IMG/VR virus record: IMGVR_UViG_3300003690_000011
Coordinates: 1 to 64,000 of that record
Strand: one strand, 5' to 3'
DNA from: a virus
DNA: 64,000 bases
Position numbers and translations under genes: made by a program. This document shows, in pieces, positions 5,444-47,142 of the stretch (within the stretch, counting starts at the first letter, position 1; each line of letters begins with the position of its first letter). The notes under the pieces are model-generated. The model made no database searches, had not been told where the DNA came from, and saw nothing but the letters and a program-made list of their open reading frames with translations.

Positions 5444-5466
5444 AGATCCTCCAACTCGGTAGGAAA
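5440..5466. repeat. 27-base direct repeat, copy 2 (original polymerase copy)
   Basis: Pair of 5172-5198 (one mismatch). This copy is continuous with the polymerase coding sequence to its right, so it is the likely donor. Confidence 0.85.
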
Positions 5467-6456
5467 GTAAAGCTTCACCAAGTCCATCAAACTCTTAGGC
5501 ATGTTCTCATCAATAAAATGATGCATAATCTTGGTGTCCCACACATTCTTTACATAGATTCCGTAATTAATCAAGAACTTTAGATCGAACTTAGCATTGT
5601 GAAATACCTTCTTGCTTTTTGGGTTCTCTAGTATTTGCCGTAGACTCACCCACAATGCTCCCTGGTGCTCATCAACAAAGGGAGAGTCCTTATGATCACA
5701 CGGAATTACCCATGTTCTTTCCCTACATGAGATAGCAATCGTCATAATACTATCCTCTAGGAAATTAAGACCTGTAGTTTCAATATCACAAGCTAAGGTC
5801 TCTGTGGAATCCTTCAACTCATCAGCTAAAGTCTTAACCTGTTCGATATCTAACAGAACCTCATAACTAAAGTTTCCCTTGCTCTTCTTCTTGAGAATAT
5901 ACTTCTCATAAGCGTTGGTAATGTCCCGTTTGAAGAGGGTATTGAATCTAGGCTCTCGAATTACAGAATAAGGATGATAAATAGGGACAACAGTTGCTGT
6001 ATGTCCTGCCTTTGTTGTAAATTCAAAAGATGTACCTCTCTTATTTAAGATTCCGCTCTTCTTGATTAGCATCTTCATCGCTAGATTACCACAAGGGAAG
6101 ATTAAAGTAGGCTTTACCCTATCTACCGTCGCTTCCAAGTGCGCCCTGCACAGCTTCATATTATCAGGAGACATGTCTCCTTCTTTAACCGAAGGACATT
6201 TTACAGAGGCAGCACAAACAAAAGGTTCATGGTATGCATCTTTAAGGAGGTCCATTTCCTTGTCGGAGAAAGAACACACCTTCCCAAAACGATAACGAAA
6301 AGAATCAGATAAAAATAATGTGGGACTTTCTTGCAAATCCTTATAATCCATGTGTGAATGACATGGTTTAATTTTACTAAGGATTGTGCAACCCTCACAT
6401 AAAGGGTTGTCCGAACTTACTTTATGACCAGAATACAAAGTTTCTAAATCAAACAT
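5440..6456 (-). CDS. DNA polymerase family A, N-terminal UDG-like plus 3'-5' exonuclease part (truncated)
   Basis: Residues about 15-170 resemble a family-4 type uracil-DNA glycosylase: cysteines C20-x2-C23 and C87-x15-C103 fit its Fe-S cluster, P-x-L-I-F-P-C-G-N-L-A at 115-125 and H-P-Y-S at 161-164 fit conserved blocks. The catalytic G-E-A-P-G motif is not seen, so the domain may be inactive. Residues about 200-338 are the exonuclease: Exo I D224-I-E-T and Exo II N287-A-K-F-D291. The reading stops at L-E-D-L before Exo III, which lies 1.57 kb away at 3596-3874 beyond an opposite-strand cassette. A UDG-exo-PolA order is known from SPO1-type phages, where this gene carries a group I intron. 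ATG 6456 directly follows TATAATAGT. Confidence 0.85.
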   Translation of the reverse strand: MFDLETLYSGHKVSSDNPLCEGCTILSKIKPCHSHMDYKDLQESPTLFLSDSFRYRFGKVCSFSDKEMDLLKDAYHEPFVCAASVKCPSVKEGDMSPDNMKLCRAHLEATVDRVKPTLIFPCGNLAMKMLIKKSGILNKRGTSFEFTTKAGHTATVVPIYHPYSVIREPRFNTLFKRDITNAYEKYILKKKSKGNFSYEVLLDIEQVKTLADELKDSTETLACDIETTGLNFLEDSIMTIAISCRERTWVIPCDHKDSPFVDEHQGALWVSLRQILENPKSKKVFHNAKFDLKFLINYGIYVKNVWDTKIMHHFIDENMPKSLMDLVKLYFPTELEDL

Positions 6457-7576: not shown

Positions 7577-8104
7577 ATGGAAGATAATTACGATATTTCT
7601 AATCTAAAAGAAAAAAAGAAGATCAACAGCAGGACCAAGGGTAGCTCCTTTGAACGCCAAATATGTAAGATACTTAATAAACGCTTTAATACTACTGAAT
7701 TCTGTAGAAGCCCTGGGTCTGGTGCTTTTGCTACAACACATTCATTGCCTGAACATTTAAAAATATATGGAGATATAATAACACCTAAAGAATTTAAATA
7801 TTGTATTGAATGTAAAAAAGGATATAATAACCAAAATTTATATAGTCTATATAATTATAATAGCGAGTTCTGGGGATTTGTAAACCAATGTGAAAAAGAT
7901 TCGAAAAAGTGTTACAAAATCCCAATGGTGATATTCAAACAGGATAGACAACCTATACTAGCCATAGTACCTGCTTATATTAAGTTTGGAAATCAGTATA
8001 AATCTATTCAAATATTTAAAAAACTAGATGGATTTATTATTAGCTATAATATTTATCTATTTGAATCTATACTTGAAAGCTATGATGCTCTGTGGATGAA
8101 GTAA
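7577..8104 (+). CDS. Holliday-junction-resolvase-like PD-(D/E)XK nuclease
   Basis: 175 residues. An endonuclease pattern is visible: helix with E26 (S-F-E-R-Q-I-C), R-S-P-G-S-G-A at 44-50, D66 in Y-G-D-I-I and E78-C-K80 in I-E-C-K-K-G. This order (E, GSG, GD, ExK) matches Holliday-junction resolvase/Hjr-like nucleases. Strong Shine-Dalgarno AGGAGG before ATG 7577. The 3' end overlaps the convergent 877-residue gene by 38 bases. Likely role: resolving recombination intermediates before packaging. Confidence 0.7.
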   Translation: MEDNYDISNLKEKKKINSRTKGSSFERQICKILNKRFNTTEFCRSPGSGAFATTHSLPEHLKIYGDIITPKEFKYCIECKKGYNNQNLYSLYNYNSEFWGFVNQCEKDSKKCYKIPMVIFKQDRQPILAIVPAYIKFGNQYKSIQIFKKLDGFIISYNIYLFESILESYDALWMK

Positions 8105-25827: not shown

Positions 25828-25845
25828 TTTCTTATTGTACTATTT

Positions 25846-28521
25846 CTAAATTGTAAGTTGACCTAAATTAGGGTTATTTCCTAAATCAGTATGATGTCTA
25901 TCTGAATCCATTACTAGAGATAAAGACCAAGAAACAGAAGGAAGAACACTTCTACCTACCTTAGGATTACCTTTATAACCCTTGCAATAGGGGACGTTGC
26001 CGGGACCCACATATTCATTATTCTCAAAATTCATAATATTTTCATTCATTACGTACCAACCAGCTGTATTCCATCGGTCAACACGTACAGATCTATTCAT
26101 ATACATTCCATTTGGGCCGGACCCGCCACCGCCGCCGCTCTGGATGCCCCAGACAGGTATTGCCCAATAGGATACGCTCGTCCTTGGGCTCCACTCATGA
26201 GCATTCTGATTTATACTTTTTCCTGCCCACGCAACATATACGATAAAATAATCAGTGCCTTGAGCATCATTTCCACTAGGTCTTCCTTTTTCTACCCAAA
26301 GTCCCTGACAAAATCCCGCTGACTGAGTGTAGGAGGATCTGTTGAGCGACCCTCTCCCCGCTGCCCCTATACAATTAGCTAGGTTAACATTAACATGATA
26401 ATCTACACAACCATTAGGTCTTGTAAAATAGATCTTTTTTTTACATAGATAAAAATAATGTGGGGCCATCATATTGTGGGTTGTGAGCGCGTTTATCTCA
26501 TACATACCGTCACAATTTTTAAGTCTGCCATACGTTGCGGTATCATAGATGCCATCAAGGAGAACCGCCCCCCCTCCATCAGAACCTTCTCCTTCCCCCA
26601 TCCAACAAGCGCCATTGATCATAGGACTTTGAGTAGTATCAGACTCAGTACTAGACTTCATAGGTGTAAAAACAGGTGTTATGAAATCACCTGGATAACC
26701 TCCTGGGTGATCCAACTCCGTCCATTTACCCACCCACTCAGCAACATCCCAATCAGGCAAAACAGGAATATCTCCTCCATCAATAACACCTAAATTCGCT
26801 CCATTCTGAGAGTCAGTTCCATTAACCATTTTTTCTAGAACATCAAGATCATTTACCCCGCCTTCATCACTTCCACCCTGAGTCGCCCTGTGCATGAAAT
26901 CATATAACACTCCTTCCGGCCCAAAAGCTAATCCTCCATAAATCCACCCAGTAGCTGCTTGACCTTGATGAGGAATCTCTGGAATCGCCGCCTCAACTTG
27001 ATCTACTCTAATATTGAGAGCATCATTAACCCTCTTTATTTCCCAATCTACCTCCACTCGACCTACCGCAGGATTAGCTAATGAAAGTTGGGGGGTAGCT
27101 GCTGCAATCCCTGCTCTTTCATTGTAGGCTAATTCTGCTGTTCTGAATAGAGGTCTAATATCTATTACATCCGTTTCAACCACTACAGTTGAACCATTCT
27201 GTACCCAAACATAGGCTACAGGAAGAATAGACTGTCCTACTAATTCCAAAGCATTATTTTCTAATTTCTCTGATATTAGAGGAGCAATATTTAAAATATC
27301 ATCGGGAGATGGAAACGATCCACGAACATCAAAAGCTACATCATTTCCTGAAGTGGCAGTAAACCCCATATCCGCATTATTCTGATCACCAGGACTTGCC
27401 ATTATTTTAGGATTGAGGTCAGCATCAGCCCCTGCTACCCTTTTATAACTATCAAGAGTTACATTAGGGTCAGTATCAGAATATCTCATACTAATACCCG
27501 CTCCTCGAACAATTCCTAAAATAGGTTTAGTTATAGTAGTTCCAGGAATATTTGCCCCAGCATCTCCTCCCCTGGCTATCTGAGCAGCACTGGCGTCGAT
27601 TGATTTACTATAAATAAATACCATATCTATTCTACTCTGAGCCCCCTCTATCTGTATTTCAGTCCCCTCTTCATCGAAATAATTAAAATCATTTGGGGAA
27701 AACGGAGGAACTTCAACAGTGATCTCCTCACTAATATCTACAATTGAAGTTCTAGCTATGCCACGCCACTTTTTAATTAATTGAGACTCCAACATACCTA
27801 ATTGAGTAAGACTATCCGTAGGAGTAAATAAAGTTTCTGCTATCCAATTATCGACAGACCCATCTGATCGCGCCCATAGTAAAGCTTGATTAACTACGTT
27901 AGGGTTTCTCCCCACATAGTTCATCGGAGAATAGGATATGGAACCATTATGATCATGAGTATACCAATTTACTCCAGTACCATTAAGTGGAGTATCAGGT
28001 GAATATATTGGTCGAGTTGTAATTCTGTTTTCTAAACCCGTCATTCCTAAAGCATTTTGAGAAAGAAGTAAACTATCTCTAAATTTTTCTAAAACATTAA
28101 CTAACAGAGTGTTCCATGACGGAGAGACTCCTGATGGAAATGCTCCAGCATTTGCGGCAGTTATCTTGAACTGTTCCATAGCTCCAGGTAATTCACTTGC
28201 ACCAATCTTTTTTAAATATTGAAGAGGTTCTTTCGTTACGCCATCATTAATACGAGCAGTAAATCTTCCTGGTTTTACACGAATTACTCTATCGGCTCCT
28301 GTAGCATATGGGCGTAATTCATCCAAATCCCTTCGTTTTATTCCTAAAGGAGCATCAGATATTGTTCGGATTAATTGATCTTTTAACCACTTACAATTCT
28401 CTTCCAACTGTTTGATAGGGATGTTATCTACTTCAAAGAAATAAGGATCATTAGCTTTAAAATAACGAACGGGATCCGTAAATCTATAAACACTATCTTC
28501 ATAATCTAGTTCTTCTGCCAT
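25846..28521 (-). CDS. Tail fibre/baseplate protein (891 residues)
   Basis: The N-terminus F-T-D-P-V-R-Y-F-K-A-N-D-P-Y-F-F-E-V-D-N (then I-P-I-K-Q-L-E-E-N) resembles the start of the neighbouring 1244-residue protein (W-E-Q-D-N-L-P-L-Y-D-L-E-E-R), suggesting a shared baseplate-attachment module. The rest is large, Gly/Asn-rich and mostly beta, without an enzymatic motif that I recognise. The C-terminal W-A-I-P-V-W-G region could be receptor-facing. Starts 1 base from the preceding gene's stop. Confidence 0.55.
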   Translation of the reverse strand: MAEELDYEDSVYRFTDPVRYFKANDPYFFEVDNIPIKQLEENCKWLKDQLIRTISDAPLGIKRRDLDELRPYATGADRVIRVKPGRFTARINDGVTKEPLQYLKKIGASELPGAMEQFKITAANAGAFPSGVSPSWNTLLVNVLEKFRDSLLLSQNALGMTGLENRITTRPIYSPDTPLNGTGVNWYTHDHNGSISYSPMNYVGRNPNVVNQALLWARSDGSVDNWIAETLFTPTDSLTQLGMLESQLIKKWRGIARTSIVDISEEITVEVPPFSPNDFNYFDEEGTEIQIEGAQSRIDMVFIYSKSIDASAAQIARGGDAGANIPGTTITKPILGIVRGAGISMRYSDTDPNVTLDSYKRVAGADADLNPKIMASPGDQNNADMGFTATSGNDVAFDVRGSFPSPDDILNIAPLISEKLENNALELVGQSILPVAYVWVQNGSTVVVETDVIDIRPLFRTAELAYNERAGIAAATPQLSLANPAVGRVEVDWEIKRVNDALNIRVDQVEAAIPEIPHQGQAATGWIYGGLAFGPEGVLYDFMHRATQGGSDEGGVNDLDVLEKMVNGTDSQNGANLGVIDGGDIPVLPDWDVAEWVGKWTELDHPGGYPGDFITPVFTPMKSSTESDTTQSPMINGACWMGEGEGSDGGGAVLLDGIYDTATYGRLKNCDGMYEINALTTHNMMAPHYFYLCKKKIYFTRPNGCVDYHVNVNLANCIGAAGRGSLNRSSYTQSAGFCQGLWVEKGRPSGNDAQGTDYFIVYVAWAGKSINQNAHEWSPRTSVSYWAIPVWGIQSGGGGGSGPNGMYMNRSVRVDRWNTAGWYVMNENIMNFENNEYVGPGNVPYCKGYKGNPKVGRSVLPSVSWSLSLVMDSDRHHTDLGNNPNLGQLTI

Positions 28522-31500
28522 TTAATTATCTCTCTTCAAATCAAAAATATTAGCCGATTTAAATCCTATAGTTGCAGATGCATCTCCTTCAAAAGCTTCT
28601 GAGCCTGCATCTAGGCTATCTCTGGATCTATATAAGTATACTTTCCTAGGTCTCCCCGACATTCCTATAGAAGCATTTTTCGCATTAGCGAATAAGTTAG
28701 AGGCTGATTCATCTAACATACATTGAGTGGGGTTATCATCAACAAACTCTTTACAATAATAAAATCCAGAAGTCCATAATTGATCTGCCACTCCGTATCC
28801 CCTTGAATCATAACTCAATTTTAATAAATTGGGATAATTACTGCTTGTTGCATTTGCCTCTCCCCATGTAGTGGTATCAGGACTAGCCAAAGCAGATACA
28901 GGAGCCGACATATTGTAACATTGTGAGAAAATTTGATATACAGGGCCTGCAACTCCATAAAAATCATGACCCCCCAACGCACACGCTCCATTAATATAAC
29001 CACTCATATCAGCATATAAAAGTTTAGTTTCTGGTTTGGGAGAGAAGTAAAGTCTGAACACACCTTGATTGTCATAGTTAACTACCCCTGCTCCATATAT
29101 CCCTGCATCTACATGCCCCATAAATCCCCGTCCTGATACAGCAATACCTGCGTCTACTAAGCGTTTAACTAAAGCCAAAGGAAGGATCCCCTCCAAAGCA
29201 GCGGCAGTACCGGCATCTCCTCGATCCACTCCCGATACAGGATAATATCTCCCAAAGGGTTCATTAAACCCAACACCAGAAGGAATTAGCCATGCACCAC
29301 TTCCTGCCCCAAAAGTATCTAACACACTTAGAACACCCGTATCAGGAGTAGCAGAGGGAGCCCCAGACGCTATTATATCACGCCCCGCACCCGGAGATAC
29401 GGGGTTATTTCCTGGCACCTCAGCCGACGCCCACAATGCACTAGGACCATGATACCCCACATCATAAGGATACATTGCACTAACGGAGCAATAAGCTGCA
29501 TTAAGTCTAGATGTATCAGCAATATTCCACATCATTAGGAGATTACAGGGGGTTCCACTACAACTATAGAATACGGAATCCATGGGCGAAGTACTTGTTC
29601 CAACGGGAAAATTAACATTCATCACATTAACTACACTATCTTCGGTAGCTCGTAGACAAACTCCTCCTTTGGACATCCATGCCATCTTCTCCTCCCAGGT
29701 ATTATCGTCATAATAGGATTTAACGCTAATAGCAAATTGATTACTAGAAGTATAAACATCAAAGGTGGGGGAAGTTCCTCCAGCCCCTAAGGCCGCAAAT
29801 TGTGAATATGATAAATTCCTGCTAGTTGAAGAAAGATCATCCATTTCAAATCCAGTATATGCTGATTCATTCTGCGGATTCGGGAAGAACTGTAAAGATC
29901 CGTTACGTAAAATTTCTCTGGTATCCGCATCTACAATGTAATCAGTTCCATCTGCTAGTAGAATTCGCCCCGTGGGACTATTACCCCAAGATCCTGCATA
30001 GTCTCCTAAGTCTCTCAGATTAATTGTAGAGTTTTTATTAGCTACTAAACAAGACCTTGTTGAGTGTAACTCAACAGAAGTATGATTCCCTACGTCACTT
30101 AAATCAAAACCACTTACATCTATTGTATTGGTGGAATCGAGTTGTGGAGGAGTAATATTAATAACGGAATTATCTTCTGCCAGAACATCCACTCCAAATT
30201 GTCCAATAAATGTAGGCCCATGCAATCCTATAGTAGAATTTTTAGAGGCATACAACCCAGCAACATACCGCTGGTAGTCATATCCAGGAGGACCCATAAT
30301 AAAAGTAGCTCCGTTTTTAGTTCCATAAAACTCAACATTGGAATTATTATTAGCTTGAAGAGCTAGGCCATAATGGGGAGTATTAGGAACGAAATTACTT
30401 TGTAACCTAGGTACAATAAAAGTATTTAGAAAATTTGCTTTCGAGTGATCAACTTGAATTGCAGGTGGAATTAAAGTATTGGGAGTTTCCCCCCACCTCA
30501 GTCCCCCATGAGCAAAGAGAAAAGCAGTATTTCCATAGGAAGTGGGTATATGCACCTTCTTTTTGAAAGAAAACTCACTGTTTGCCTGTAAATCTAAGTG
30601 CTGTCCGTTATGAGCAAAATCAGTTTGTTTATTACGGTACTGTCCAGTAGTACCAGGATTACCAGAAGTATCCACCATTACACTAGAATTCTTTGACAAT
30701 AATCCTTTTTCTTGATTACCTCCTACACACAAATCCTCATATACAAGTTGAGAATTATTTAAAGAAATTCCATCCAAATTTCCATAGACATCAAGAAGAC
30801 CTTTCAAATCAACTTGTGAATTATTTAACTCTATCCCAAATGTATTATTAAGTTCAAAGGTAGAGATACCCCCTGTCTTCGAGTTAGTAAGAACTGAACG
30901 AGGAAGACCGCCAGTAAGTTTAGAGTTATCTAAACGCATACCGAGATTATTTCGAGAAGCACACAGAATAACATCCCGACCTTCGCCCTCCCACTCACCC
31001 GCACCCGCTTCCGTAGTAGCTGTAAGTAAGGCGCTAATAGAAATATCACTATTTACTCCATGAAAACCTATACCTCGATCAGGGAAGCGTCCCGTACTTG
31101 AAGATAATTCATAATTTCTATATGCAAATGCTGATCTTGATAAAACTACTTTTGAATTATTAAATTTAAACCCAGCTTCTTTACATCTAATAGCCGCACA
31201 ATTTTCTAGAAGTACATCCGAATTTGTGATTTCTATTCCCGTTCGTTTGGGGCTGCGTAGGAGAACCGCACCCATTCCTGTTTGATTATCTCCATCAACC
31301 AAGAAATTTCGTATATAAATAGGCCCATCACAATCCTTTACACTAATTTTACTACAACGATTAAGATATGTGGACCCTCCCGCACTCGTATCAACGGCAA
31401 TATCGAGTCTCTTTACAAATGTATCATCTATAGGATTAACCGCACTCATATCAAAGCCTGCGGCTATAGATGCATCTGTTGTCTCATTCTCATAAGGATC

Positions 31501-32256
31501 TAGCCCAAATGTGTAGAGGGTGGCAGGCGTAGGCATAAATTCTGTTTTCGTATTTCTGACGGAGACAGTTAGAGGAGATCTGCGATTATAAGAATCAGGG
31601 TACAGGAAAGTATAAACTGAAGATAAACGAGATACGGTATCATCAACCCCATCAACATCACTATCTTGTAAAACCCTAGTAGAAATATGTACTGCCGACG
31701 TACAAACATAGTCGCTATTACCTGAAAAGAGAGTAGCACTCAAATCAGGAGCCAATAAATTAGTAACTAGAGGATAATTTTTATCGGACGCAGGCTCATC
31801 AACTATTGCCTTAATTTGTCCCGAAGTTGTAAAAATTTTAGAATAAGCTCTATTTATAATTTCAATAGAACCACCCTCTTCAATTCTAATATTATGTAAT
31901 TCCAGTTTACCTAGATCTCCAAAGTTACAAACCTCAACGAGAACAGGGAATCTAACTACCTTAGGAATGGCTGCGAGACAAGCTGATAGAGTGGTAAATA
32001 TTGTTGAATCAGCGACTAAAGTATTAGTAGGTGTATTTCCTGATACTGTTAAGGCAAAGCCTGTAATAGAAGAAGTAGGGAACCCACCCTGCTCCCACAT
32101 CTCATAAGTTCTCTCCTCTAAATCATAAAGGGGCAGATTATCTTGTTCCCAATTATAGAAAGAACTTGTATCAAATTTAGCTACATAAGGAGCCCATTGG
32201 TTAAATAATTTAACACTTCCACTAGTTGTATAAATATCATGTCTATTAAATGTCAT
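28522..32256 (-). CDS. Tail fibre/spike protein with parallel beta-helix (1244 residues)
   Basis: After an N-terminal adaptor-like segment (F-Y-N-W-E-Q-D-N-L-P-L), residues about 300-800 show repeated short rungs such as L-N-N-S-Q, D-N-S-K, K-N-S-S-V and N-N-S-K-V, each with Asn/Ser turns. This is the pattern of right-handed parallel beta-helices in phage tailspikes and fibres. No catalytic motif can be assigned; such folds often bind or cleave polysaccharide. The C-terminal 400 residues are globular-looking and variable in type, and may bind the receptor. Confidence 0.6.
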   Translation of the reverse strand: MTFNRHDIYTTSGSVKLFNQWAPYVAKFDTSSFYNWEQDNLPLYDLEERTYEMWEQGGFPTSSITGFALTVSGNTPTNTLVADSTIFTTLSACLAAIPKVVRFPVLVEVCNFGDLGKLELHNIRIEEGGSIEIINRAYSKIFTTSGQIKAIVDEPASDKNYPLVTNLLAPDLSATLFSGNSDYVCTSAVHISTRVLQDSDVDGVDDTVSRLSSVYTFLYPDSYNRRSPLTVSVRNTKTEFMPTPATLYTFGLDPYENETTDASIAAGFDMSAVNPIDDTFVKRLDIAVDTSAGGSTYLNRCSKISVKDCDGPIYIRNFLVDGDNQTGMGAVLLRSPKRTGIEITNSDVLLENCAAIRCKEAGFKFNNSKVVLSRSAFAYRNYELSSSTGRFPDRGIGFHGVNSDISISALLTATTEAGAGEWEGEGRDVILCASRNNLGMRLDNSKLTGGLPRSVLTNSKTGGISTFELNNTFGIELNNSQVDLKGLLDVYGNLDGISLNNSQLVYEDLCVGGNQEKGLLSKNSSVMVDTSGNPGTTGQYRNKQTDFAHNGQHLDLQANSEFSFKKKVHIPTSYGNTAFLFAHGGLRWGETPNTLIPPAIQVDHSKANFLNTFIVPRLQSNFVPNTPHYGLALQANNNSNVEFYGTKNGATFIMGPPGYDYQRYVAGLYASKNSTIGLHGPTFIGQFGVDVLAEDNSVINITPPQLDSTNTIDVSGFDLSDVGNHTSVELHSTRSCLVANKNSTINLRDLGDYAGSWGNSPTGRILLADGTDYIVDADTREILRNGSLQFFPNPQNESAYTGFEMDDLSSTSRNLSYSQFAALGAGGTSPTFDVYTSSNQFAISVKSYYDDNTWEEKMAWMSKGGVCLRATEDSVVNVMNVNFPVGTSTSPMDSVFYSCSGTPCNLLMMWNIADTSRLNAAYCSVSAMYPYDVGYHGPSALWASAEVPGNNPVSPGAGRDIIASGAPSATPDTGVLSVLDTFGAGSGAWLIPSGVGFNEPFGRYYPVSGVDRGDAGTAAALEGILPLALVKRLVDAGIAVSGRGFMGHVDAGIYGAGVVNYDNQGVFRLYFSPKPETKLLYADMSGYINGACALGGHDFYGVAGPVYQIFSQCYNMSAPVSALASPDTTTWGEANATSSNYPNLLKLSYDSRGYGVADQLWTSGFYYCKEFVDDNPTQCMLDESASNLFANAKNASIGMSGRPRKVYLYRSRDSLDAGSEAFEGDASATIGFKSANIFDLKRDN

Positions 32257-37000: not shown

Positions 37001-38607
37001 CCCCTCCCTGCCGAATATGCTTGTGCTCTAAAAAATGTATAACTAGGATCTTCAGCTAAATGAGCATGAAATGGTTGCATACCAAATTCATTTACAACTG
37101 TATATAAATCTGTTTTATCCCCAAATTCATTTATATTAAAAAGTTTATTTACGGGGAATTTCTCTCCATGAAAATTAAAATTATCAGGAAATTTCTTATA
37201 TAATTCTAACATCAGGGAGTCTGTAACTATCTTTAAGTTTTCTTCCAAACTGCTAGTGTTATAGTAGTACACCCCCGCGTCAACAGCAAGTCCTGGGGTC
37301 CAAGTCTCTAAACTTTTAAAATAAGGAGACTCAGTTCCAAGACTATACCAAATCAGATGAGGAATATATGATTCCCACAATTCTTGAATATTACCTGAAA
37401 CATTCAATACTGAGTCAGTTATTAAATTATTAACAGCAAATTGAACAGCATCTAATGTGCCTTTTCTCTTATAAATATTAACAGCTTGTCGTAGTTGTTG
37501 CCTCCACTTATCTGTAGAGCCGCCCCATAGTTTCCACCCAATTAAATCAGCTATATAACGCAGATACTCAGGTTTAGTATTTTCAATGTCATAAATTAAA
37601 CCGATATTCTCTACTTCATCCGTCAAGTCTGCTAGACTAAACCCCATCGCAGTTTGAAATTTTCTAAGCGGTCCCTTAGATATACGATCATCTAATTGAG
37701 TAGATGCCCCTATGTAATCATCAAATGCATCCTTAACTCGGAAATCCTGCTCATCTATGAATAATGGAGAATAAATTACATCAATAAGAGTGAGTAAATT
37801 TTCTAACTTTTGTACCCCACTTGTATAAGTGGCTACCACCCCTGCACTAGGAGATAAAATAGCGTCCGCTGCCCCAGAAATAAAAGAGGTGGGAATCAAT
37901 CCCAGATTAGAAAATGTGGTACAAGTAGAATAATTTCTCCAGAGAAAATTTTCAAACCCTCTTACTCCATCCCCTGTATCTAAACTCCCTCCTAGGTATA
38001 GAGAATTTAGAGAACTTAATACATATCCCGAAGGCTCCCAAGCTAACCCCCCATCAGCAGACGTATTTAGAAAGTAAAACCACCCTAGAGCATCTACCAA
38101 GTAATTGTGAACACTACTCCCATCAGAGTTTCCTGTAAAGGATGATAGCTCACTCATGTTTGTCCATAAAGGATCATCGGAAGTCCCATCTCCTTGAAAC
38201 AATCTAATTTTAGGGAGTAGCGTTCCCGATAGATAATCATTAAAAGCACTACTTGTATCAAACTTATTAATAGAAGCACTTAAAGGAAGTAAAATCTTTT
38301 GATCGAATGTAAACGCATTAATATTAGTTAATTTATTTTGTTTTACAAAGTACTGGGATATCCCAGAGATATTATCTAGATTTACAGTTTGCGAATCTGC
38401 TACAGCCGATATGGAGAGAACAGTAGAAATATTATCAGCAGCAACTAGATTAGTATTTATTATCTCTGAGACTGGGTTAAGCTCTTTTCCGCTTAAGGTT
38501 AAATCCTCTTCCTCATAAATACCAGGGGTTATCAACTCCAGTAATTCTACAAAATTACGTTTAGAGTAAGTTCTAGTATTCGGAGTAAAGGGATTTGGAT
38601 TACTCAT
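34051..38607 (-). CDS. Baseplate wedge protein with P2 gpI-like domain (gp7-like, 1518 residues)
   Basis: Residues about 336-395 hold the tail-protein-I signature: K-P-E-Y-L-R-Y-I-A-D-L-I-G-W, then R-Q-A-V-N-I-Y-K-R-K-G-T-L-D-A-V. In contractile tails this protein pairs with gpJ/gp6 to build the wedge and link fibres. The start overlaps the gp6 stop (TAATG). The rest is a very large extension of beta-rich, Ser/Gly-rich sequence, possibly decorating the baseplate, comparable in size and place to T4 gp7. Confidence 0.7.
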   Translation of the reverse strand: MSNPNPFTPNTRTYSKRNFVELLELITPGIYEEEDLTLSGKELNPVSEIINTNLVAADNISTVLSISAVADSQTVNLDNISGISQYFVKQNKLTNINAFTFDQKILLPLSASINKFDTSSAFNDYLSGTLLPKIRLFQGDGTSDDPLWTNMSELSSFTGNSDGSSVHNYLVDALGWFYFLNTSADGGLAWEPSGYVLSSLNSLYLGGSLDTGDGVRGFENFLWRNYSTCTTFSNLGLIPTSFISGAADAILSPSAGVVATYTSGVQKLENLLTLIDVIYSPLFIDEQDFRVKDAFDDYIGASTQLDDRISKGPLRKFQTAMGFSLADLTDEVENIGLIYDIENTKPEYLRYIADLIGWKLWGGSTDKWRQQLRQAVNIYKRKGTLDAVQFAVNNLITDSVLNVSGNIQELWESYIPHLIWYSLGTESPYFKSLETWTPGLAVDAGVYYYNTSSLEENLKIVTDSLMLELYKKFPDNFNFHGEKFPVNKLFNINEFGDKTDLYTVVNEFGMQPFHAHLAEDPSYTFFRAQAYSAGRGIEWEASHSSGVLGYGVYMKGDAHPGEPQDVLYLSSTGDLEFFFNYRGRMNCPLPPFEEIKYYADCSLTPQLVAYLRERLECFGVRPSFASSVQNFIVSAGITTDTNLGSLNEFLMFFSSVQTPPNYNDVLLNISEQSNNILGLWNGKSSHLFLDFDDIDFNFAKTSFEGDSKFALYEAARIARQFTPAHSIVKVNVNASAVDIFDYSSTTWNYLGYSTSANNLRSYGSQSNPSGLGFLGGFELSGVNMGSVGTNDGRGGLNTFVRSEVDNIFDDLLSSKTSFTLAQVAAGNTARRATRRRNFRYALPMEGYYDRTAFNAPNSWDASSLENSMPSSLGELTLGYVASANKFFPIVDPINPSGVWHYCENLESSRTFSGVDTSNTFPYRGLRGMGSNAKWEEFASVTDRYVDRGQTPSIYISMHKLFEDKAMFTANQDITTSSANTYWKNEIQSYANSAIASGLVLNSFEDYRDFKFGTGLHKVFKDYKTYFPTPLGLTQIDKTGGNIFAHVFGKGLYNCDLELEGSAVETMAGDYVASSVNTGLAISQNHGSGVFSICAVASYSDGTDILPASGTYIASGLTDSVVPLDGIEFVSGAANNAEYRNPHLLSGIEFCDTSGAPSGNAFYVFRIDNKYKAAGEENYLIGNTIIKCKTFGGLPRLRFDLASYGEDRDYNNHFIKDHKFKLKIKALVAEENSPILGGGRVGIWIHTKPRTFASDLGSTGAALSGLMWSFTSKGKWVMHDCHQTSKAHVMSYSHLFEFPIKQPDPQSQIICLGNITTGSDDIINNVSLNNIKEDYFETFEVNFDTRNYTIYNNYEYLDIIPVPEEYYKLKELVNNDDTDYVVEIYFPKNPVTAKYLLIDNISLEDSTLRDRAGIGTGTGTKTDGIPLRTFVSEEAEDKLYFDKEQLRDTLRFFTGLAGVAGMGEYTTNIVTRNAVAADIGPTNGENKGGSRLNYRLHPRWGVYIAQAGVQCYTLIQTDN

Positions 38608-40229
38608 TAGTCTAAGAGAGTAATATTGATAGTTAAATTATTCAACTGAATAATCTCATTAAAATCTACCATAATATCTTGAGCTATATTATCTATAGTA
38701 GAAAATCTAATTTCATCAATTTCAAAAATTTTTCTATTTAACTCAGAAATATATAAAGACTCACCAAAAGATCTATTCATTACATTCATATATACTAAAA
38801 TCTTATCCCGTGCTTTAGCAACAATAAGATCTTGTAATGATTCTTCTTCTTTATCAATATAAATTGTTATTACCAAATCTAAAGTACGGATTAGTCCGTC
38901 CACCACCACAAGTTCATCAGTTGCCATCTTCTTCTTATTGGCATCAGCAAGCAATTGTGTTTTAAAATTGGGTGTAGCTTTTTGCAGTTGTAGATCGGAA
39001 GCTTTTTCTAGAACATAAATATCAATGATGTTGGCAGAGCTATATGCCTTCCTGGTAGCTGCTGTAGCTATCCCTACCGTTCCAAATTTACTTATAAACG
39101 TATTAGCAAATACGCTATAATCTTCCAAAGTAACCAGTCTATCTTGTCTAGCAAAAGTTAGGGGAGCCCATTTTTTTGCATGCTCTACTGTTTCAGCGTT
39201 TGAACCCCCCGTAGCTACAGAGGTATTAGTTAAAGCTCCAATAACAGGATCTAAGGCTAATCCCGTAATTCCTGTTACATTAATATTAATAGTATTAGGA
39301 TTTATATTTCCCCGTGATCCTCCACCCACTCTATAAGTAATAAAATAAGACGCTGTATCATCGGGAGACGTACCCACCGTCCCATCTCCAAAAACTACAG
39401 TAGCATCATAATTTGTACCATATACTAGTTCATAGATTTTATCAGAAGCTCCAGATGCAAAATAGATATTATCTACCTCTTCATACACCCCCGAAACAGC
39501 AGAATCAGTTGAAGTAATAAATACTTCAACACTTCCCTCCACGACAGGGGATTGAGATAATTTAACTGTTTTAATTCCTTCTGTAGCAGCAAACGATCCA
39601 CCATCAGTAACAAATACTCCCTCCTGAAGTACTAAGTTAGAATAAACTGTGTGGGAAGGGGTACCATCGGGATTATCACTCTCCGAATCATATAAAAGAA
39701 TATTACCTGCGGAATTGGCTTGGGCTACCAGTCCATTAACTACTTTGTATAATGTATAAGTTACAGAACCTCCATCTTCAGGGGAGGTAATACTTACTGT
39801 TCTACTTGCTGGTGCAATATTATAATAAATCTCATTATCTCCTGAGTCTGCGGGAGAACTCTCGAACGTTACCTGGGCGTCGGCAGCCGCTGATAGGGGT
39901 CCGCGCATCCTCACTCCGATTAATTGTAATAATTTTTTAATACTACTCCTCTGCTTGGCCGTAGCAAAGAAATTCTCATTAGCTAACATATCCGCTTTCA
40001 TAGACAGGACCGATCCCATATAAGCCACTTGCTCAATGAACATCATTCCTAAATCTGATTCAACAAAATAAGTATATTCGAGGGGATAAACAGCTTTAAT
40101 ATAAGCTATTAACGAATTCCTTAGAGAGATGAAATCAGTGGCAGCGAAATTAATAAGAGAGGGGCGCTTTAATACAGGGATTTTAGCCAGAGCTAAATAA
40201 TCCGACGCTATAGTTCCAGAAAAACTCAT
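38607..40229 (-). CDS. 6: Baseplate wedge protein gp6 / gpJ-like
   Basis: 540 residues. The N-terminal region V-E-S-D-L-G-M-M-F-I-E-Q-V-A-Y-M-G and D-M-L-A-N-E-N-F-F-A-T-A-x-x-R-S-S are typical of gpJ/gp6 wedges, followed by the beta-rich middle and the family's G-G-S-R-G-N-I-N-P. Start overlaps gp25 stop by ATGA and its end overlaps the gpI-like start, the usual gp25-gp6-gp7 order. Confidence 0.88.
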   Translation of the reverse strand: MSFSGTIASDYLALAKIPVLKRPSLINFAATDFISLRNSLIAYIKAVYPLEYTYFVESDLGMMFIEQVAYMGSVLSMKADMLANENFFATAKQRSSIKKLLQLIGVRMRGPLSAAADAQVTFESSPADSGDNEIYYNIAPASRTVSITSPEDGGSVTYTLYKVVNGLVAQANSAGNILLYDSESDNPDGTPSHTVYSNLVLQEGVFVTDGGSFAATEGIKTVKLSQSPVVEGSVEVFITSTDSAVSGVYEEVDNIYFASGASDKIYELVYGTNYDATVVFGDGTVGTSPDDTASYFITYRVGGGSRGNINPNTININVTGITGLALDPVIGALTNTSVATGGSNAETVEHAKKWAPLTFARQDRLVTLEDYSVFANTFISKFGTVGIATAATRKAYSSANIIDIYVLEKASDLQLQKATPNFKTQLLADANKKKMATDELVVVDGLIRTLDLVITIYIDKEEESLQDLIVAKARDKILVYMNVMNRSFGESLYISELNRKIFEIDEIRFSTIDNIAQDIMVDFNEIIQLNNLTINITLLD

Positions 40230-40693
40230 GTTATTACCACCTCTACATCAAACATAGTTAGATCCCCCTCTGATATCTTTATTACTAAACTAACTTTTAA
40301 AGAATTCCCTCCTGCGGGTCCTGCGTCCCCATAGGGGATTACAGATATCCTTTGAATTGTTGCTCCTACTATATATCTATCAAAGGACCAAGCAATTTCT
40401 CTTTTAATAGCTTCAAACGTAGATTCTGTTAATGGTTGAAATAAAAATCTTCGGAGATTACATCCAAAACGAGGAAGCATTATTCGCTCTCCCCGTTCTG
40501 TTGATAATAATTGTTTTACTGCTCCTCTAATTAAATCCCTGCCTACTACTTTTTTGAAAAAACCACCGCTATCTCTATTCTTTCCTATAGGAAAATTTAG
40601 ACCATAGGTAACTTTTTGTAATTCAGCACTATTTCTTTCTAGTGGGGGAAAGTAAGTAGTTCCATAAGTGTTTACAGTTTGATTTGCTCCCAT
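40226..40693 (-). CDS. 25: Baseplate wedge protein gp25
   Basis: 155 residues with the GPW/gp25 pattern: T-E-R-G-E-R-I-M-L-P-R-F-G-C-N-L-R (about residues 66-82), then F-Q-P-L-T-E. gp25 links sheath to wedge. Overlaps gp6 by ATGA and follows the sulfatase giant by 14 bases. Confidence 0.88.
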   Translation of the reverse strand: MGANQTVNTYGTTYFPPLERNSAELQKVTYGLNFPIGKNRDSGGFFKKVVGRDLIRGAVKQLLSTERGERIMLPRFGCNLRRFLFQPLTESTFEAIKREIAWSFDRYIVGATIQRISVIPYGDAGPAGGNSLKVSLVIKISEGDLTMFDVEVVIT

Positions 40694-40707: not shown

Positions 40708-43700
40708 TTAAGAAAAGGGCTGTGTCCTCTGTTCTAAGTAATTATTAAGAGAAGTTATCATTGCCCAATATACCCTAGCTATCACCCAATTATCATTTGT
40801 ACTACTAGTTTGGTCAGCATTGTCTAGAAGCCATCTTAAAATATCTTTACTATCAGCAACTCCCCCCACCTTGGCAGGTAATAATACATTAATAAGTTCG
40901 AATGGATCAGCAACTGAACCTGTTCCATCTCTCAGATGATACAACTCATCAAATCCTGATCCTTCGTATGTATAGCCACTAGTACATCTAATAAGTTTCC
41001 ATGTTCCTGCACTAGCGTCTGGTAAAGAAGTATAAATCGCTGTAGTATCGGCTCCTGAGGCGCTATGATGTCCCCATGCATAACCATTCGCACTCACACT
41101 CATGCCTCTACGTCTCTGCACAGGCAAATTAGGATTACCAGAAACGCCTACGGCAGCAGTCGTAGTCAGCGTCACTGAGCCATCAGAACCCAATGTATAT
41201 TTACCAACTTTACCAGTGTAAGTTCCCATACCAGCATCATTAATAACCCCATCAACATCAAATGGGTCTAAACGATGCAGTGGGATAGTTCCTGATGCTA
41301 CTGAATTTCCTAAAGGTCTAAAAGACTCTGCAAAACTAAAGTTCTTTGCAGTCTTTCCTTCCCCAGATAATACGGATAAGAATGATGTTCCTTCGTATCT
41401 TTGAGGTTGTTGAGGAGTATTAGGTATAAGATCCTTGTTAACTCCTGCAATTTCTGCTATAGTAGCATAAATATCAATAGCATCAACAAAAGCCAGCGAA
41501 CTACCTCCTGGATCAGCCAAGAATGGAGCTTTTACGATTAGGGGAACTCTTGTCCCCCGTTCATAAACTGAATCCTTGAAACCCCGACTACTATCTCCCT
41601 CTCCTCCTCTTCTCTCAGGTAAATAAGTAGTGCCAGTATTGTGCTTATTACCTCCATACAATAATTTAGTATAAATTGGCCCCATTCCGCTAGTAGTGTT
41701 ACCTACTTCCCCTCCTGAGATAGAAGAAACATAAGTATTCATTTTTGCTAAAATACTTGGATCTGCTCCATTATCCCCCATGAAGATAAATATAGTTCTA
41801 TCCTTTCTACCTTCGTCAATAGATGATAAGAAAGAACTTAACATCCAATCCATATCCTCAATTTGGGCGTTAACATTAAAGCATGTACTACTACTATCAG
41901 CCAAATTCTTCTGATCTGGACTAACATCTGCTGTGGGGAGAGCGTCTATTCGAGCTTGGTAATGCATGGAAGAATAAAAAGCCTCAGCAGGAGAGGTGCC
42001 CCACCCCTCCATACCCCACCCATAAGTAGTTCCTGATGGAGTCATGGTTTGGGGGGCATGAGGAGCATTCATAGCCATATATAAGAAAAACGGTTCCTCT
42101 AAATTATTAAAGGAATCGACTGCTTCCACTATGGTCTTATGAGTAGCATAGGAAGAAGCGTCCCCCTGAGCATAAGGTACACGGAGAGACGTATCTACAG
42201 CACCTCCTGCTACTGTAGTTCCAGAAATAGATTCACTAAATGTGGTATATCCAGTATCTGAAACAGTAATAACCTCTCCATTTTTATTCATAAAATAGTT
42301 AACATACCCACTATTAACATCTGATAGTGAATAATCTGCATCCCAGGCTCCAGCACCTGTATTACTAATAAAATCATTATGACCAGGAGCAGGAGGTTTA
42401 TTCAAATTCCAGAACATAGCCCTATAATCATCCCACTTTCCTACCTTACTAATATGATCCCACCCCGCACCAGAAGCATTTCTATTAGGATGTCCTGCTG
42501 TAGTTGGACTTTCATTATAGGAAGCTATACTACTCCACTCCCCTAGATGCCATTTACCCACCATACCACTCTTGTAACCTTTAGCCCTGATAGCTTCAGG
42601 TAGAATCTTAAAATTGACTCCCGATGCCCAAGAAGACTTTGCACCATCTGTAGCTGTTACAATATCTTCTAGTAATCGCACATTTCCATTCACATCATAA
42701 ATCGGATATTGAGTTCCTAGCCCATTAAGACCTCCAGAGGTTTTTTCAAATTTTAAAGTTCCTACACCACCAATGCCATGTCCCCAATAACCACGGCTAC
42801 CATCTTTATGTAAATAGTTAGGACTACTAAATGCTTGCTTGCCCGTCATAATAGCGGCTCTACTAGGGGAACATAAAGGTTGTGCATGAGCATTAAAGAA
42901 AGTAAGACCCTCTGAAGCTATACTACTCAAAGTAGGTGTATAAGGATAAATATTAATTCCATTAGTAGGATCATCTAACGTACTAAACGGAGTAGAAGGA
43001 GAGGGCAATTCATAAGGATTCTCAGAGTCATAGACTGATAACTGGTCTATACCTAAATCATCCATAAATACTAGAACAACATTAAATCCTGCACCTGTAA
43101 GGTAATTTAGTTGATGTAATTTTAGATCAATACTTTGGAAAAAACCTTTTTGAGCATTATAATTTTTTTGAACTTCGTATCCTGTGAGAGGTTTTCCATA
43201 AAATTTTAAACTTCCTAAATGCCCCTTATAACTACTTTGAATTCCCCCTCTATCTCCTCCCATAAAGTTCCCATGCTCATACATTCCATCAGTATATCCC
43301 CCTCCCACTATCCAAGGAGTAAAGAATGGATTTAATCTAGGCCCATCATGCAGCGTAGTAGGTCCATCTACTGTAGTAGATGAATATTCGAAACTATTAT
43401 TTTTCTTAAACGAAGGTAGACTCGGAGTAGTAAAGGGAGCAACCCCAAATACCTCACTGATAGCCGAAGTAGTTACCAAAGTCCCATCTACAAAGAATCT
43501 CATTGTATTAGTTGCAGGATCAGCAGTAATATCTACTAATATAAAGTTAGATGAAACTCCTCCAAAAGCAGTAGCAGATAGATCAACCTTCATTTTATAG
43601 AAAGTCGCATAATCCTGACATTCATCGTTATTTATCCAGGAACAAGATGAGAAATCTCTTGACTGAGTAGGAGCAATAAAGAAACTTAAAGAAGAAGTAG

Positions 43701-45834
43701 GTTCATTTAGTAAATTATCATTACTATACCCCGTAGAGGCGTGAGTAATACGTCTGTCTCGCGTAAATCCCATCACCATTCCCCTTACATAACTACTTCC
43801 TTTATTATTCTCTAGGAAATCAAGGTCAAGGGGGTTTCCTACGTGATCCTGAGGAGCGGAGGCTGCACTTGCTGCGCCTACATTCTCACACCCTAGAATT
43901 ACTTTTGTTAGAGCCGACGCTGTGCTACTAGCCCACCCCGCTTCCCCATCCATAATATTGGGTACATAAGCCCAAAATTCTATAGAGAAACCGCTAGGAC
44001 TATATGTTAATTCCCTAAACTCTTGTGTGTCGGGGAGTCTTCCAAAAGATCCCATAGCAGATGCGCCTGCGGTATCGGTAGATTTATTTTTAGTAATTCC
44101 CTCAAAGTAAGGAATAGCAAGTCCAAACGGAAAAACACTAGGTCTATTAGTTCCTAAAAGTTTAGCATTATTATATTGATCAGTGGTAGCACAATTAGTA
44201 ACAAAATAATCAGTAGAAGATGGTGTTACTAACTTTGTTTCTAAGAAATTATAAATAGCAAACAACTGATCAGTAACAATTTGATCAGTAAGAGATAATA
44301 TACTAGCAGAGTTCGCTGCCGAAGCATTATATATAATGCTACCCTTTCCTACTTTTGGTACATGTAAATGTCTAAAGCCTATAGAAGCTGGTTTAGGGGG
44401 AGATTGAACAAAGAGAGGATTTATAGGTAACACCATCCCTGTGACCTCCCCCTGCTCAAAGATTAAAGCTTTTTGTTTCTCTAAATCTACTTGTAGATTA
44501 TATTCTTCTAGATAGGAAAAATCATTGATGGGTACATGCCCTGGAAGAAAGGGTGTAGTAGCACCTGACGGTCCATAAATTTGCGGGCCTTTAAATGCTA
44601 TTTCGATCTGTTTCTTTCGTCTATCAATCTTATCGTAATGATTTGCTATTTCAGAAATAATCTCTTGACGCTGATTCTGTACTATAGAAGAATCTTCTCC
44701 ATAATTTTCAATATAATTAAAGAGGGCACCTGATAAATCTGATACATGTTTATCTTTTTGCTGTATAAGAACGCTCAAGAAATGGTCTACATTATAATTG
44801 GCTTGCATTCCTAAACTCTCGTCTATTCTAGAGATATCAAAAATGTTTTCTGTAAACTTATTCAGAGATTTGATAGAAACTGCGTCTCCCTTTCCCCCCA
44901 AGTTAGGGTCATAATCATAAGTCCACGCATCTCCAACAGGCACTATGCCAGAAATAGCTAAATAAATGGGATCTAGCCCTCCTGATTGAGAATCATAATA
45001 TAGTCCATCCGAAGTAAGGATATATTGACCTTCAGTAGTTATAGGAGGTCCGTAAACCAGCCTAAAGACATCTTCAGCAGCCTCAATCCCCAAACCAGGG
45101 TCTTCTGGAGCGCATCGTGTGAATGTAGTTCCTGATAACGACTCATCAAATTCAGCAGAATCTAAAAAACATGGCTCTAAATTAGGATCAGCAGCCCTCT
45201 CCCCTAGAATGGCATCAATCTCATTCATTCTAGCGGTGCATTCGTTAATGAAATTGGAAGTAGCCTCAATTCGAGCTATAGCTCCTGCATACCTAGAATT
45301 TATAAAATCTTCTTGCTCCTGAGGAGGTAAGGTATTACGTTGAGTAGCAGCATTCCCTCCCTGGAACGATTGCATATCACTAAATTTCCCCAAACAATCT
45401 AATATTCCCCCAATTTGGGCTGAAATATTGGTATAATTGGAATAAATATCTATACCGAACTCATAAGCTGTACCTAATACAGAGATAGCACCATTCAAGT
45501 TAGCAAGTAATTGAGAAGAATCGTTATCTATTCCAAGAAAAGAAGAGTCCGATTTAATTTTAAATGTCCCTGTCTCCGTATCAAAAGCTAATACGCCCGT
45601 ATCACTCATTACACTCTTTATTAAATTACCAACGTAACCGTTAGCTTCCGCTCGACCTTCTGCAAATGAAGACTGAATTGAAGTTAAAATTGGAGAAGGT
45701 AATAAAGACATCGCTGCCGAAGCTAAACTTAGCATACAACTAGGAAGACCGTAAGCCATTCCTAGGGCATCAAATAACCCAGCACCACCAACTCCCTGTA
45801 CCTTTAAAAAGGTAGTAAGATCAAAAGCTGCCAT
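40708..45834 (-). CDS. Baseplate-associated giant protein with LamG-like and sulfatase domains (1708 residues)
   Basis: Residues 1 to about 600 are helical, with coiled coil, and sit between spike and gp25 genes as large baseplate proteins do in marine T4-type phages (from memory). Residues about 612-897 look like a LamG/concanavalin fold (F-S-I-E-F-W-A-Y-V-P at the start, L-K-F-Y-G-K-P-L-T near the end). Residues about 912-1650 are a sulfatase: F-M-D-D with D925/D926, formylglycine motif C988-S-P-S-R-A-A-I-M-T-G, G-K-W-H-L-G with K1094 and H1096, N-A-P-H-A-P, M-G-D-N-G with D1354/N1355, and a closing E-L-Y-H-L-R. All core catalytic positions appear intact. It needs host formylglycine maturation of C988. 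Likely role: desulfating polysaccharide at the cell surface during adsorption. Confidence 0.85.
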   Translation of the reverse strand: MAAFDLTTFLKVQGVGGAGLFDALGMAYGLPSCMLSLASAAMSLLPSPILTSIQSSFAEGRAEANGYVGNLIKSVMSDTGVLAFDTETGTFKIKSDSSFLGIDNDSSQLLANLNGAISVLGTAYEFGIDIYSNYTNISAQIGGILDCLGKFSDMQSFQGGNAATQRNTLPPQEQEDFINSRYAGAIARIEATSNFINECTARMNEIDAILGERAADPNLEPCFLDSAEFDESLSGTTFTRCAPEDPGLGIEAAEDVFRLVYGPPITTEGQYILTSDGLYYDSQSGGLDPIYLAISGIVPVGDAWTYDYDPNLGGKGDAVSIKSLNKFTENIFDISRIDESLGMQANYNVDHFLSVLIQQKDKHVSDLSGALFNYIENYGEDSSIVQNQRQEIISEIANHYDKIDRRKKQIEIAFKGPQIYGPSGATTPFLPGHVPINDFSYLEEYNLQVDLEKQKALIFEQGEVTGMVLPINPLFVQSPPKPASIGFRHLHVPKVGKGSIIYNASAANSASILSLTDQIVTDQLFAIYNFLETKLVTPSSTDYFVTNCATTDQYNNAKLLGTNRPSVFPFGLAIPYFEGITKNKSTDTAGASAMGSFGRLPDTQEFRELTYSPSGFSIEFWAYVPNIMDGEAGWASSTASALTKVILGCENVGAASAASAPQDHVGNPLDLDFLENNKGSSYVRGMVMGFTRDRRITHASTGYSNDNLLNEPTSSLSFFIAPTQSRDFSSCSWINNDECQDYATFYKMKVDLSATAFGGVSSNFILVDITADPATNTMRFFVDGTLVTTSAISEVFGVAPFTTPSLPSFKKNNSFEYSSTTVDGPTTLHDGPRLNPFFTPWIVGGGYTDGMYEHGNFMGGDRGGIQSSYKGHLGSLKFYGKPLTGYEVQKNYNAQKGFFQSIDLKLHQLNYLTGAGFNVVLVFMDDLGIDQLSVYDSENPYELPSPSTPFSTLDDPTNGINIYPYTPTLSSIASEGLTFFNAHAQPLCSPSRAAIMTGKQAFSSPNYLHKDGSRGYWGHGIGGVGTLKFEKTSGGLNGLGTQYPIYDVNGNVRLLEDIVTATDGAKSSWASGVNFKILPEAIRAKGYKSGMVGKWHLGEWSSIASYNESPTTAGHPNRNASGAGWDHISKVGKWDDYRAMFWNLNKPPAPGHNDFISNTGAGAWDADYSLSDVNSGYVNYFMNKNGEVITVSDTGYTTFSESISGTTVAGGAVDTSLRVPYAQGDASSYATHKTIVEAVDSFNNLEEPFFLYMAMNAPHAPQTMTPSGTTYGWGMEGWGTSPAEAFYSSMHYQARIDALPTADVSPDQKNLADSSSTCFNVNAQIEDMDWMLSSFLSSIDEGRKDRTIFIFMGDNGADPSILAKMNTYVSSISGGEVGNTTSGMGPIYTKLLYGGNKHNTGTTYLPERRGGEGDSSRGFKDSVYERGTRVPLIVKAPFLADPGGSSLAFVDAIDIYATIAEIAGVNKDLIPNTPQQPQRYEGTSFLSVLSGEGKTAKNFSFAESFRPLGNSVASGTIPLHRLDPFDVDGVINDAGMGTYTGKVGKYTLGSDGSVTLTTTAAVGVSGNPNLPVQRRRGMSVSANGYAWGHHSASGADTTAIYTSLPDASAGTWKLIRCTSGYTYEGSGFDELYHLRDGTGSVADPFELINVLLPAKVGGVADSKDILRWLLDNADQTSSTNDNWVIARVYWAMITSLNNYLEQRTQPFS

Positions 45835-47142
45835 TTACATCACCCCCCCAGTTCCATATACAGGATAATCCGATCCTATAGCAAATATGTTAATCCCTGG
45901 AAGCCAAGTATTGATGGGTGCGGGGGGAGCAATAGGATTGAGATTAATGGGAAATCCTATCATGGTAATTCCTCCTGGGCTAGTGAGGTTGGCAACAGCA
46001 TTTATTGAACCTCCTGCGCTCAAATTTAAGTCTCCCTCGGCTCTCATATTCAAATTTCCTCCTTTTGCCACAATCTCCACATCTCCTATAGCCTCAATTT
46101 CTATCTTTCCTGATGATTTTAAGCGAATTACACAACCCCCTGTCCCATAATTAGTTATATTGGGTCTCGGGAAGGGAGGATTAGGGATACTTCCAGTACC
46201 TCTTGTTTGAAGTTGGATAACTTGCTGCGTACCTTTAATATTTAGGCAATCAAGAAAAATTCTACCAGTTCCATGTCCTCTAGCTGCATTAAAATTATCT
46301 TGTTTACTAGTATCTGTAAAAATATTAACATCTTTAAACTTACTTTGAATATTTATATTTCCATACTCTGCGTCTGAAAACAAAAGGGGAGGAGAAAACA
46401 TAATAGGAGGAAACCCTAAAGGTCCGTGATCTCCTGTAGAATTGTTCATTATATTTACTTCTTTCCCATCTTGAAGTCTCATATTTACAGTACCTTGTAC
46501 TGATTTAAATGTTTGATCCCCGGAACTTTCTACTCTAATTTCAGACATACTAGGAGCAAATAAAGAAGGCGTAGCCAATCCTGCCATATGCTGATTTGCT
46601 ATAGTAATTTTACTATTATTTCCACTATCTAAAGTAATAGAATCTATACCAGGGCTGTCATCTAAGGTTATAGTTTTTCCATTTGGAGAGTTTAATTCTA
46701 CCTTTGTATTAATAAATGTAGCATTATCTTCTTCCGATATTAATAATCCTCCTCCTCTAGCTCCTTTTAACATACTTCTCTTAGGAACTCCTCTAGCTCT
46801 AAACATTTTAGGATCAGCCCGCTCAAAGGGATAATTACTTGTATTAACAAAAGCATTTCCTTTTAGTGGTGTTCCCGTACTTTCTCTTAAGATAGGGGCG
46901 TATGTAGATGCAAGATAATAATAAGTTAATTGTCCTTCTGGTTGACATACTAAGATCTGAGTTCCTGGTGTTGGCATAGCAACAAAGCCCCCCTCTGTAT
47001 TTGTAACAAAAGGTGAACAATAATTTACTGGTTCTTCTTTTATAGGTGTTCCATCAGTAAAAATTGTAGCATAGAATACCCCATCTAATGAAGGACTATA
47101 CTGATCATCAACTTCTGCTAAATAAATATTTGTTCCAGCCAT
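45835..47142 (-). CDS. Central baseplate spike, gp5/gpV/VgrG-like
   Basis: 435 residues. The N-terminal 110 fit an OB-fold (Y-A-T-I-F-T-D-G-T-P ... M-P-T-P-G-T-Q-I-L-V). From about residue 150 comes T-I-T-L-D-D-S-P-G-I-D-S-I-T-L, the classic start of the triple-stranded beta-helix, and repeated short rungs (I-E-I-E-A-I-G-D-V-E-I-V-A-K-G-G) follow. No lysozyme domain is seen. It pierces the outer membrane; the PAAR protein at 13829 is the likely tip. It abuts the sulfatase gene. Confidence 0.8.
   Translation of the reverse strand: MAGTNIYLAEVDDQYSPSLDGVFYATIFTDGTPIKEEPVNYCSPFVTNTEGGFVAMPTPGTQILVCQPEGQLTYYYLASTYAPILRESTGTPLKGNAFVNTSNYPFERADPKMFRARGVPKRSMLKGARGGGLLISEEDNATFINTKVELNSPNGKTITLDDSPGIDSITLDSGNNSKITIANQHMAGLATPSLFAPSMSEIRVESSGDQTFKSVQGTVNMRLQDGKEVNIMNNSTGDHGPLGFPPIMFSPPLLFSDAEYGNINIQSKFKDVNIFTDTSKQDNFNAARGHGTGRIFLDCLNIKGTQQVIQLQTRGTGSIPNPPFPRPNITNYGTGGCVIRLKSSGKIEIEAIGDVEIVAKGGNLNMRAEGDLNLSAGGSINAVANLTSPGGITMIGFPINLNPIAPPAPINTWLPGINIFAIGSDYPVYGTGGVM

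Follow-up and report, generated by a model that had tools for sequence, protein, structure and literature searches.

A predicted S1 sulfatase fused to a baseplate-region scaffold protein in an uncultured T4-like phage

Results

The analysed virus sequence contains a gene in which a scaffold protein of the tail/baseplate region continues, in a single reading frame, into a complete sulfatase of the S1 (type I, formylglycine) class. The product is best interpreted, with a probability of roughly 70%, as a baseplate-borne sulfatase, which would be matured by the formylglycine-generating enzyme (FGE) of the host and would remove sulfate esters from host surface glycans. Location in the virion, activity, substrate and reliance on a host FGE all belong to the interpretation; the computed support consists of the fold, the active-site residues, purifying selection, the recurrence of the fusion across phages, the baseplate neighbourhood and the presence of the module on two tail scaffolds. 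The window, i.e. the whole stretch of 64,000 nucleotides, was drawn from an uncultured virus record of 67,277 bases. The location of the relevant features is reported in Table 1.

Table 1. Position, in the window, of the fusion gene, its parts, its active-site residues and the neighbouring genes
Feature	Position	Strand	Basis and remarks
Fusion gene, 1708 aa	40708..45834	-	scaffold of tail/baseplate region plus sulfatase; single unbroken ORF
Scaffold, residues 1-904	43123..45834	-	not confidently assigned to a family; Laminin_G_3 weakly matched around residues 770-800
Sulfatase module, residues ~905-1708 (core ~916-1700)	40711..43122	-	complete S1 fold, large low-confidence insertions
Calcium ligands D925, D926	43057..43062	-	alignment
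Formylglycine signature C988-S-P-S-R992-A-A-I-M-T-G998	42841..42873	-	alignment
K1094-W-H1096 (GKWH motif)	42547..42555	-	alignment
Catalytic histidine H1259	42058..42060	-	alignment
Calcium ligands D1354, N1355	41770..41775	-	alignment
Sulfate-binding lysine K1420	41575..41577	-	alignment
gp25/gpW-like baseplate wedge protein	40226..40693	-	immediately downstream of fusion gene; Pfam GPW_gp25 3.6e-10, PHROG baseplate wedge
gp6/gpJ-like baseplate wedge protein	38607..40229	-	PHROG 219 2.1e-32; among annotated phage proteins, best matched by baseplate J / wedge proteins
Tail_P2_I-containing protein, 1518 aa	34051..38607	-	Pfam PF09684 7.3e-5
435-aa protein, no known family	45835..47142	-	abuts fusion gene upstream; similar-sized ORF there in relatives

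Sulfatase module and active site

The first-pass annotation, made from the sequence alone, had described a 1708-residue protein with a sulfatase in its C-terminal half. The reading frame is indeed uninterrupted, and its C-terminal ~800 residues match the Pfam Sulfatase family PF00884 (E=1.9e-29, 103 bits, against a cut-off of 25); the same region, free of stops, was recovered when the whole virus record was searched. A profile built from seven viral sequences matched 64 PDB sequences at E<=0.001 (best 1.2e-21), and nearly all of the matches listed carry sulfatase names. The module is about 25-30% identical to cellular sulfatases; for its SulfAtlas S1 subfamily affiliation, the best sequence matches are divided among PAS, S1_15 and S1_16, with many structural ties. 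No signal peptide is apparent by eye at the N-terminus of the fusion protein. The part described earlier as LamG-like is represented by a faint resemblance: Laminin_G_3 scores E 0.023 in the window protein and 2.5e-4 at best in relatives, in all cases below the Pfam cut-off.

Active-site residues were located in an alignment of 47 sequences, 9 viral and 38 from cellular sulfatases. The calcium ligands D925, D926, D1354 and N1355, the signature starting at C988, K1094 and H1096 all lie at the residues named in the first-pass annotation; H1259 and K1420, which it did not mention, complete the S1 set. Family membership is indicated by the formylglycine signature, by the Asp, Asp, Asp, Asn calcium ligands and by R992, K1094, H1096, H1259 and K1420. 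D925, D926, C988, R992, K1094, H1096, H1259, D1354 and K1420 are among the invariant columns of the alignment, and N1355 is conserved at 90% or more. In the viral sequences, down to about 44% identity, the ten catalytic and calcium residues are intact in nine out of nine; the signature is likewise present in all nine, with C, P and R kept and either S or T in the fourth position. Purifying selection acts on the sulfatase part. Its dN/dS is 0.32 relative to L003, the nearest relative, as compared to 0.13 for the scaffold, indicating a weaker constraint on the sulfatase; relative to the other relatives it is 0.21-0.23, with dS near saturation.

Conservation of this kind bears on the possibility that the sulfatase fold has been kept as a silent, lectin-like receptor-binding domain, adhering to sulfated glycans without turnover, for example in a host that makes no formylglycine. 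The position of the module in a tail protein would suit receptor binding, no member of the FGE family was found in the phage record, and unmodified Cys sulfatases are nearly inactive. Yet nine sequences, with differences at as many as half of their positions, have all retained the ten residues for catalysis and metal binding together with the CxP[ST]R signature, and a formylglycine motif is unnecessary for a simple binder: such an adhesin is considered unlikely.

Structure prediction had been suggested earlier as a check on the sulfatase part. AlphaFold, run on the 47-sequence alignment, returned a full S1 sulfatase fold (pTM 0.77), with pLDDT values of 85-96 in the core and low confidence in the insertions. 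The best VIA match is 7stt (Z 32.0, 412 residues aligned at 3.8 A) and the best Foldseek E-value is 2.7e-17; the structural matches listed are sulfatases of several families, along with one related formylglycine phosphonate hydrolase. Among the predicted viral structures of BFVD, strong matches are found only to giant-virus sulfatases. Homology and the matched fold together suggest that the conserved residues share one active site.

The same site could, in principle, carry out a related chemistry of the superfamily, such as hydrolysis of phosphonate monoesters, phosphodiesters or sulfamates, rather than of O-sulfates. The formylglycine phosphonate monoester hydrolase 2w8s has the same fold (Z 29.2), the module shares about 25% identity with any characterised sulfatase, and NCBIfam names are obtained for the sulfatase part only far below their cut-offs. 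The Asp-Asn metal pair and the GKWH motif, in contrast, are of the S1 sulfatase kind, phosphonate monoester hydrolases having Asp-His and lacking that Lys/His pair; moreover, the top sequence and structure matches are almost all sulfatases. A different chemistry is therefore improbable, to about the same degree as a silent adhesin.

Baseplate neighbourhood

The fusion gene lies directly upstream of the gp25, wedge gp6/J and P2-I genes, within a baseplate operon whose order is conserved in relatives. Elsewhere the phage encodes a Gp23 capsid protein (5.1e-78), a contractile sheath, T4 gp15-like and T4_baseplate proteins, a UvsW-like helicase and a family A DNA polymerase. As judged from the Gp23, sheath, gp15-like, T4_baseplate and UvsW-like genes, this uncultured phage is a myovirus distantly related to T4. 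Identity of its gp23 to the best-ranked matches from isolate phages is below 30%. Three large proteins (947, 891 and 1244 aa), encoded downstream of the tail genes (22984-32256, minus strand), have no Pfam match, and are probably further fibres or baseplate parts. A 338-aa protein (5440-6456, minus strand), encoded separately from the family A polymerase gene at 2393-3574, combines a region of the uracil-DNA-glycosylase superfamily (residues 82-174) with a DNA_pol_A_exo1 3'-5' exonuclease domain (199-334).

Scaffolds with and without the sulfatase

The first ~904 residues, whole or partial, occur in twelve IMG/VR contigs. The comparison proposed with the first-pass annotation, a search for relatives having the N-terminal ~900 residues and lacking the sulfatase, yielded seven full-length genes (L005-L010, L012), all ending at the fusion point: they stop a few residues past the junction (...KGFFKNI-stop), and the gp25 gene comes next. 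In five sulfatase-free records, no sulfatase is found elsewhere in the available sequence. In the window and in L003, L015/L016, L017, L018 (the L004 contig), L080 and L082 the frame runs straight into the sulfatase; for L083 only the sulfatase end is visible, located before the same gp25 gene. These in-frame fusions are on contigs of several metagenomes, with sulfatase identities of 47-94%.

One record is at odds with this picture: in L019 (5232-10552), near-identical to L015, the fusion gene is split into two frames and a short stretch of it is duplicated in frame, which probably reflects noise in the assembly. It is the one indication that the fusion might be an artefact of assembly or gene calling. 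Since the same fusion is kept in independent contigs from several other metagenomes, this explanation was rejected and has a negligible probability.

In a tree of the scaffold, every sulfatase-bearing phage falls on one side of a single branch (support 100/100); a tree of the neighbouring wedge gene gives the same split (99/97). The earlier proposal that a sulfatase had been added to a conserved scaffold is consistent with a fusion on that branch; the trees having no outside root, the split may represent either one gain or one loss, in the sulfatase-free phages. GC content is alike in the two parts of the gene, so that the acquisition does not look recent.

The scaffold has no match in the PDB or among isolate phages. 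In L017 and L082 it features, around residues 245-300, inserted short Cys-rich repeats (CxGxxxxxxxCxxxGGxW), weakly matched in L017 by Gp10_D3. Homology to gp10 was not accepted on these grounds, the match (5.1e-5) being below cut-off and confined to short Cys-rich stretches.

A second scaffold and the sulfatase tree

In two further contigs, L020 and L021, a sulfatase of the same lineage (aligned identity about 44%) forms the end of an unrelated protein of 1515-1523 aa, whose gene is the second one after that of a Tail_P2_I protein. A tree that includes cellular sulfatases unites the nine tail-linked ones in a single clade (100/100), set on a long stem; by this placement, they are a virus-specific clade and a new branch of S1 sulfatases. 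L020 and L021 are nested inside the group borne by the first scaffold, where their fork with L017, L018, L080 and L082 is supported at 99/98. Given this nesting, the most economical interpretation is a transfer of the sulfatase module from one tail scaffold to another. Tailspike enzyme modules also shift between scaffolds. A stretch of the second scaffold (L020 5883-8000; L021 5856-8000) resembles by eye, with no Pfam support, an alpha/beta hydrolase (NVIVAGNGFGSTLAGYLAYG), with G in the usual position of the nucleophile serine.

Standalone sulfatases of other phage contigs fall in other parts of the tree. That of L089 (2315-4093, minus strand; PF00884 1e-40) has an apparent signal sequence and lies beside portal-like and terminase genes in a GC-rich phage contig; that of L093 (9160-10620, plus strand; PF00884 1.2e-36), also with an apparent signal sequence, lies within the tail region of a siphovirus, where tape-measure-like and Dit-like genes precede it. 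The L084 contig, assessed by eye as a P2-like prophage, has an arylsulfatase gene (7701-9545, plus strand) next to tail genes and lysis-like ones. Further viral sulfatases were sought by a DNA pattern for the formylglycine motif, which covers only part of codon space. Weak "phage" matches in human faecal contigs were discarded: the one inspected, MT835799, looks by eye like a bacterial cluster that also contains other genes resembling those of sulfatases and of GH2 enzymes.

Such standalone genes raise the possibility that the fusion protein, too, is not part of the particle, being an enzyme set free upon lysis or active within the host (an auxiliary metabolic gene), and merely encoded in a tail operon. 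In addition, the scaffold belongs to no confident structural-protein family. The scaffold is, however, conserved in place between the baseplate genes of sulfatase-free phages, where it must therefore have a function of its own; the fusion protein has no N-terminal signal peptide apparent by eye, whereas standalone phage sulfatases seem to have one; and the second scaffold is likewise found in a tail operon. A role outside the particle is rated slightly less probable than either a silent adhesin or a different chemistry.

Discussion

If the product is a baseplate-borne sulfatase, the following course of events may be proposed. During synthesis of the chain in the cytoplasm, the host FGE would convert C988 to formylglycine. 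The 904-residue scaffold would be incorporated in the baseplate, or in a short fibre, beside the gp25/gp6-like wedge, and would display the C-terminal sulfatase on the particle. Upon contact, sulfate esters would be hydrolysed on the host surface polysaccharide, be it capsule, O-chain or a surrounding matrix of sulfated glycans. Desulfation may then open the path to the final receptor, or may itself be the enzymatic primary receptor interaction, as in tailspikes that remove acetyl groups.

A broader proposal, held with somewhat less confidence and still on the favourable side, is that phage-specific tail-mounted sulfatases, swapped between unrelated scaffolds, desulfate host polysaccharide at adsorption by way of the host FGE. 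They would represent the first virion sulfatase and the first entry enzyme needing a catalytic residue installed by the host; to our knowledge, no earlier phage entry enzyme has such a need.

Numerous sulfatases, along with FGE, are common in bacteria of the Bacteroidetes/Flavobacteriales. In silico work has tied marine far-T4 phages, among which the present phage may fall, to this group (PMC7198788, PMC13037479). A search of 1,077 Verrucomicrobiota, Bacteroidota and Planctomycetota genomes with the scaffold profile gave nothing convincing, and no host; one marginal match (E 7.6e-4 over ~97 residues) was not taken as evidence.

The module shares fold, catalytic and calcium residues and the CxPSR signature with cellular S1 sulfatases, e.g. 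PAS of Pseudomonas aeruginosa (1hdh) and the S1_15, S1_16 and S1_19 carrageenan sulfatases. It differs from them in being part of a tail-region protein with no apparent signal peptide, in length (~800 vs ~500 residues), in its large insertions and in forming a virus-only clade. The standalone sulfatases of L084 (P2-like prophage), L089 and L093 (siphovirus tail region) are phage-encoded S1 enzymes as well, but are separate genes, with apparent secretion signals, on other tree branches. The giant-virus proteins (Yasminevirus, Satyrvirus, Tetraselmis virus 1) also have the sulfatase fold; they belong to tailless viruses of eukaryotes and have an unrelated gene context.

The closest functional parallel is offered by deacetylase (SGNH esterase) tailspikes, such as G7C gp63.1 and the SGNH tail fibres of Klebsiella prophages, likewise tail-borne, exchangeable and expected to remove a decoration without cutting the backbone. 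For gp63.1 of coliphage G7C, activity is essential and the O-chain backbone is left intact, and the G7C/Alt63 swap illustrates the exchangeability of the enzyme module (PMC10743462); the Klebsiella fibres act on acetyl groups with the backbone uncut (PMC13123978). The phage sulfatase differs in fold and chemistry, in addressing a sulfate instead of an acetyl ester and in requiring post-translational activation by the host. It is thus a candidate virion glycan-modifying enzyme with a new chemistry, not a categorically new system. In a non-exhaustive literature search on sulfatases of phages, of viruses at large or of tails, no tail-fused or virion sulfatase was encountered; the passages to which it led dealt with FGE-like domains, with regulators or with genes of the host.

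Marine polysaccharides are characteristically sulfated. If the proposed function is correct, sulfate removal would join hydrolases, lyases and deacetylases as a phage entry chemistry, the host would carry sulfated glycans or live among them, and host range would depend on the maturation enzyme of the host. Such phages would be a natural source of particle-displayed sulfatases, and would offer a testable link between marine phages and the bacteria living on sulfated polysaccharides.
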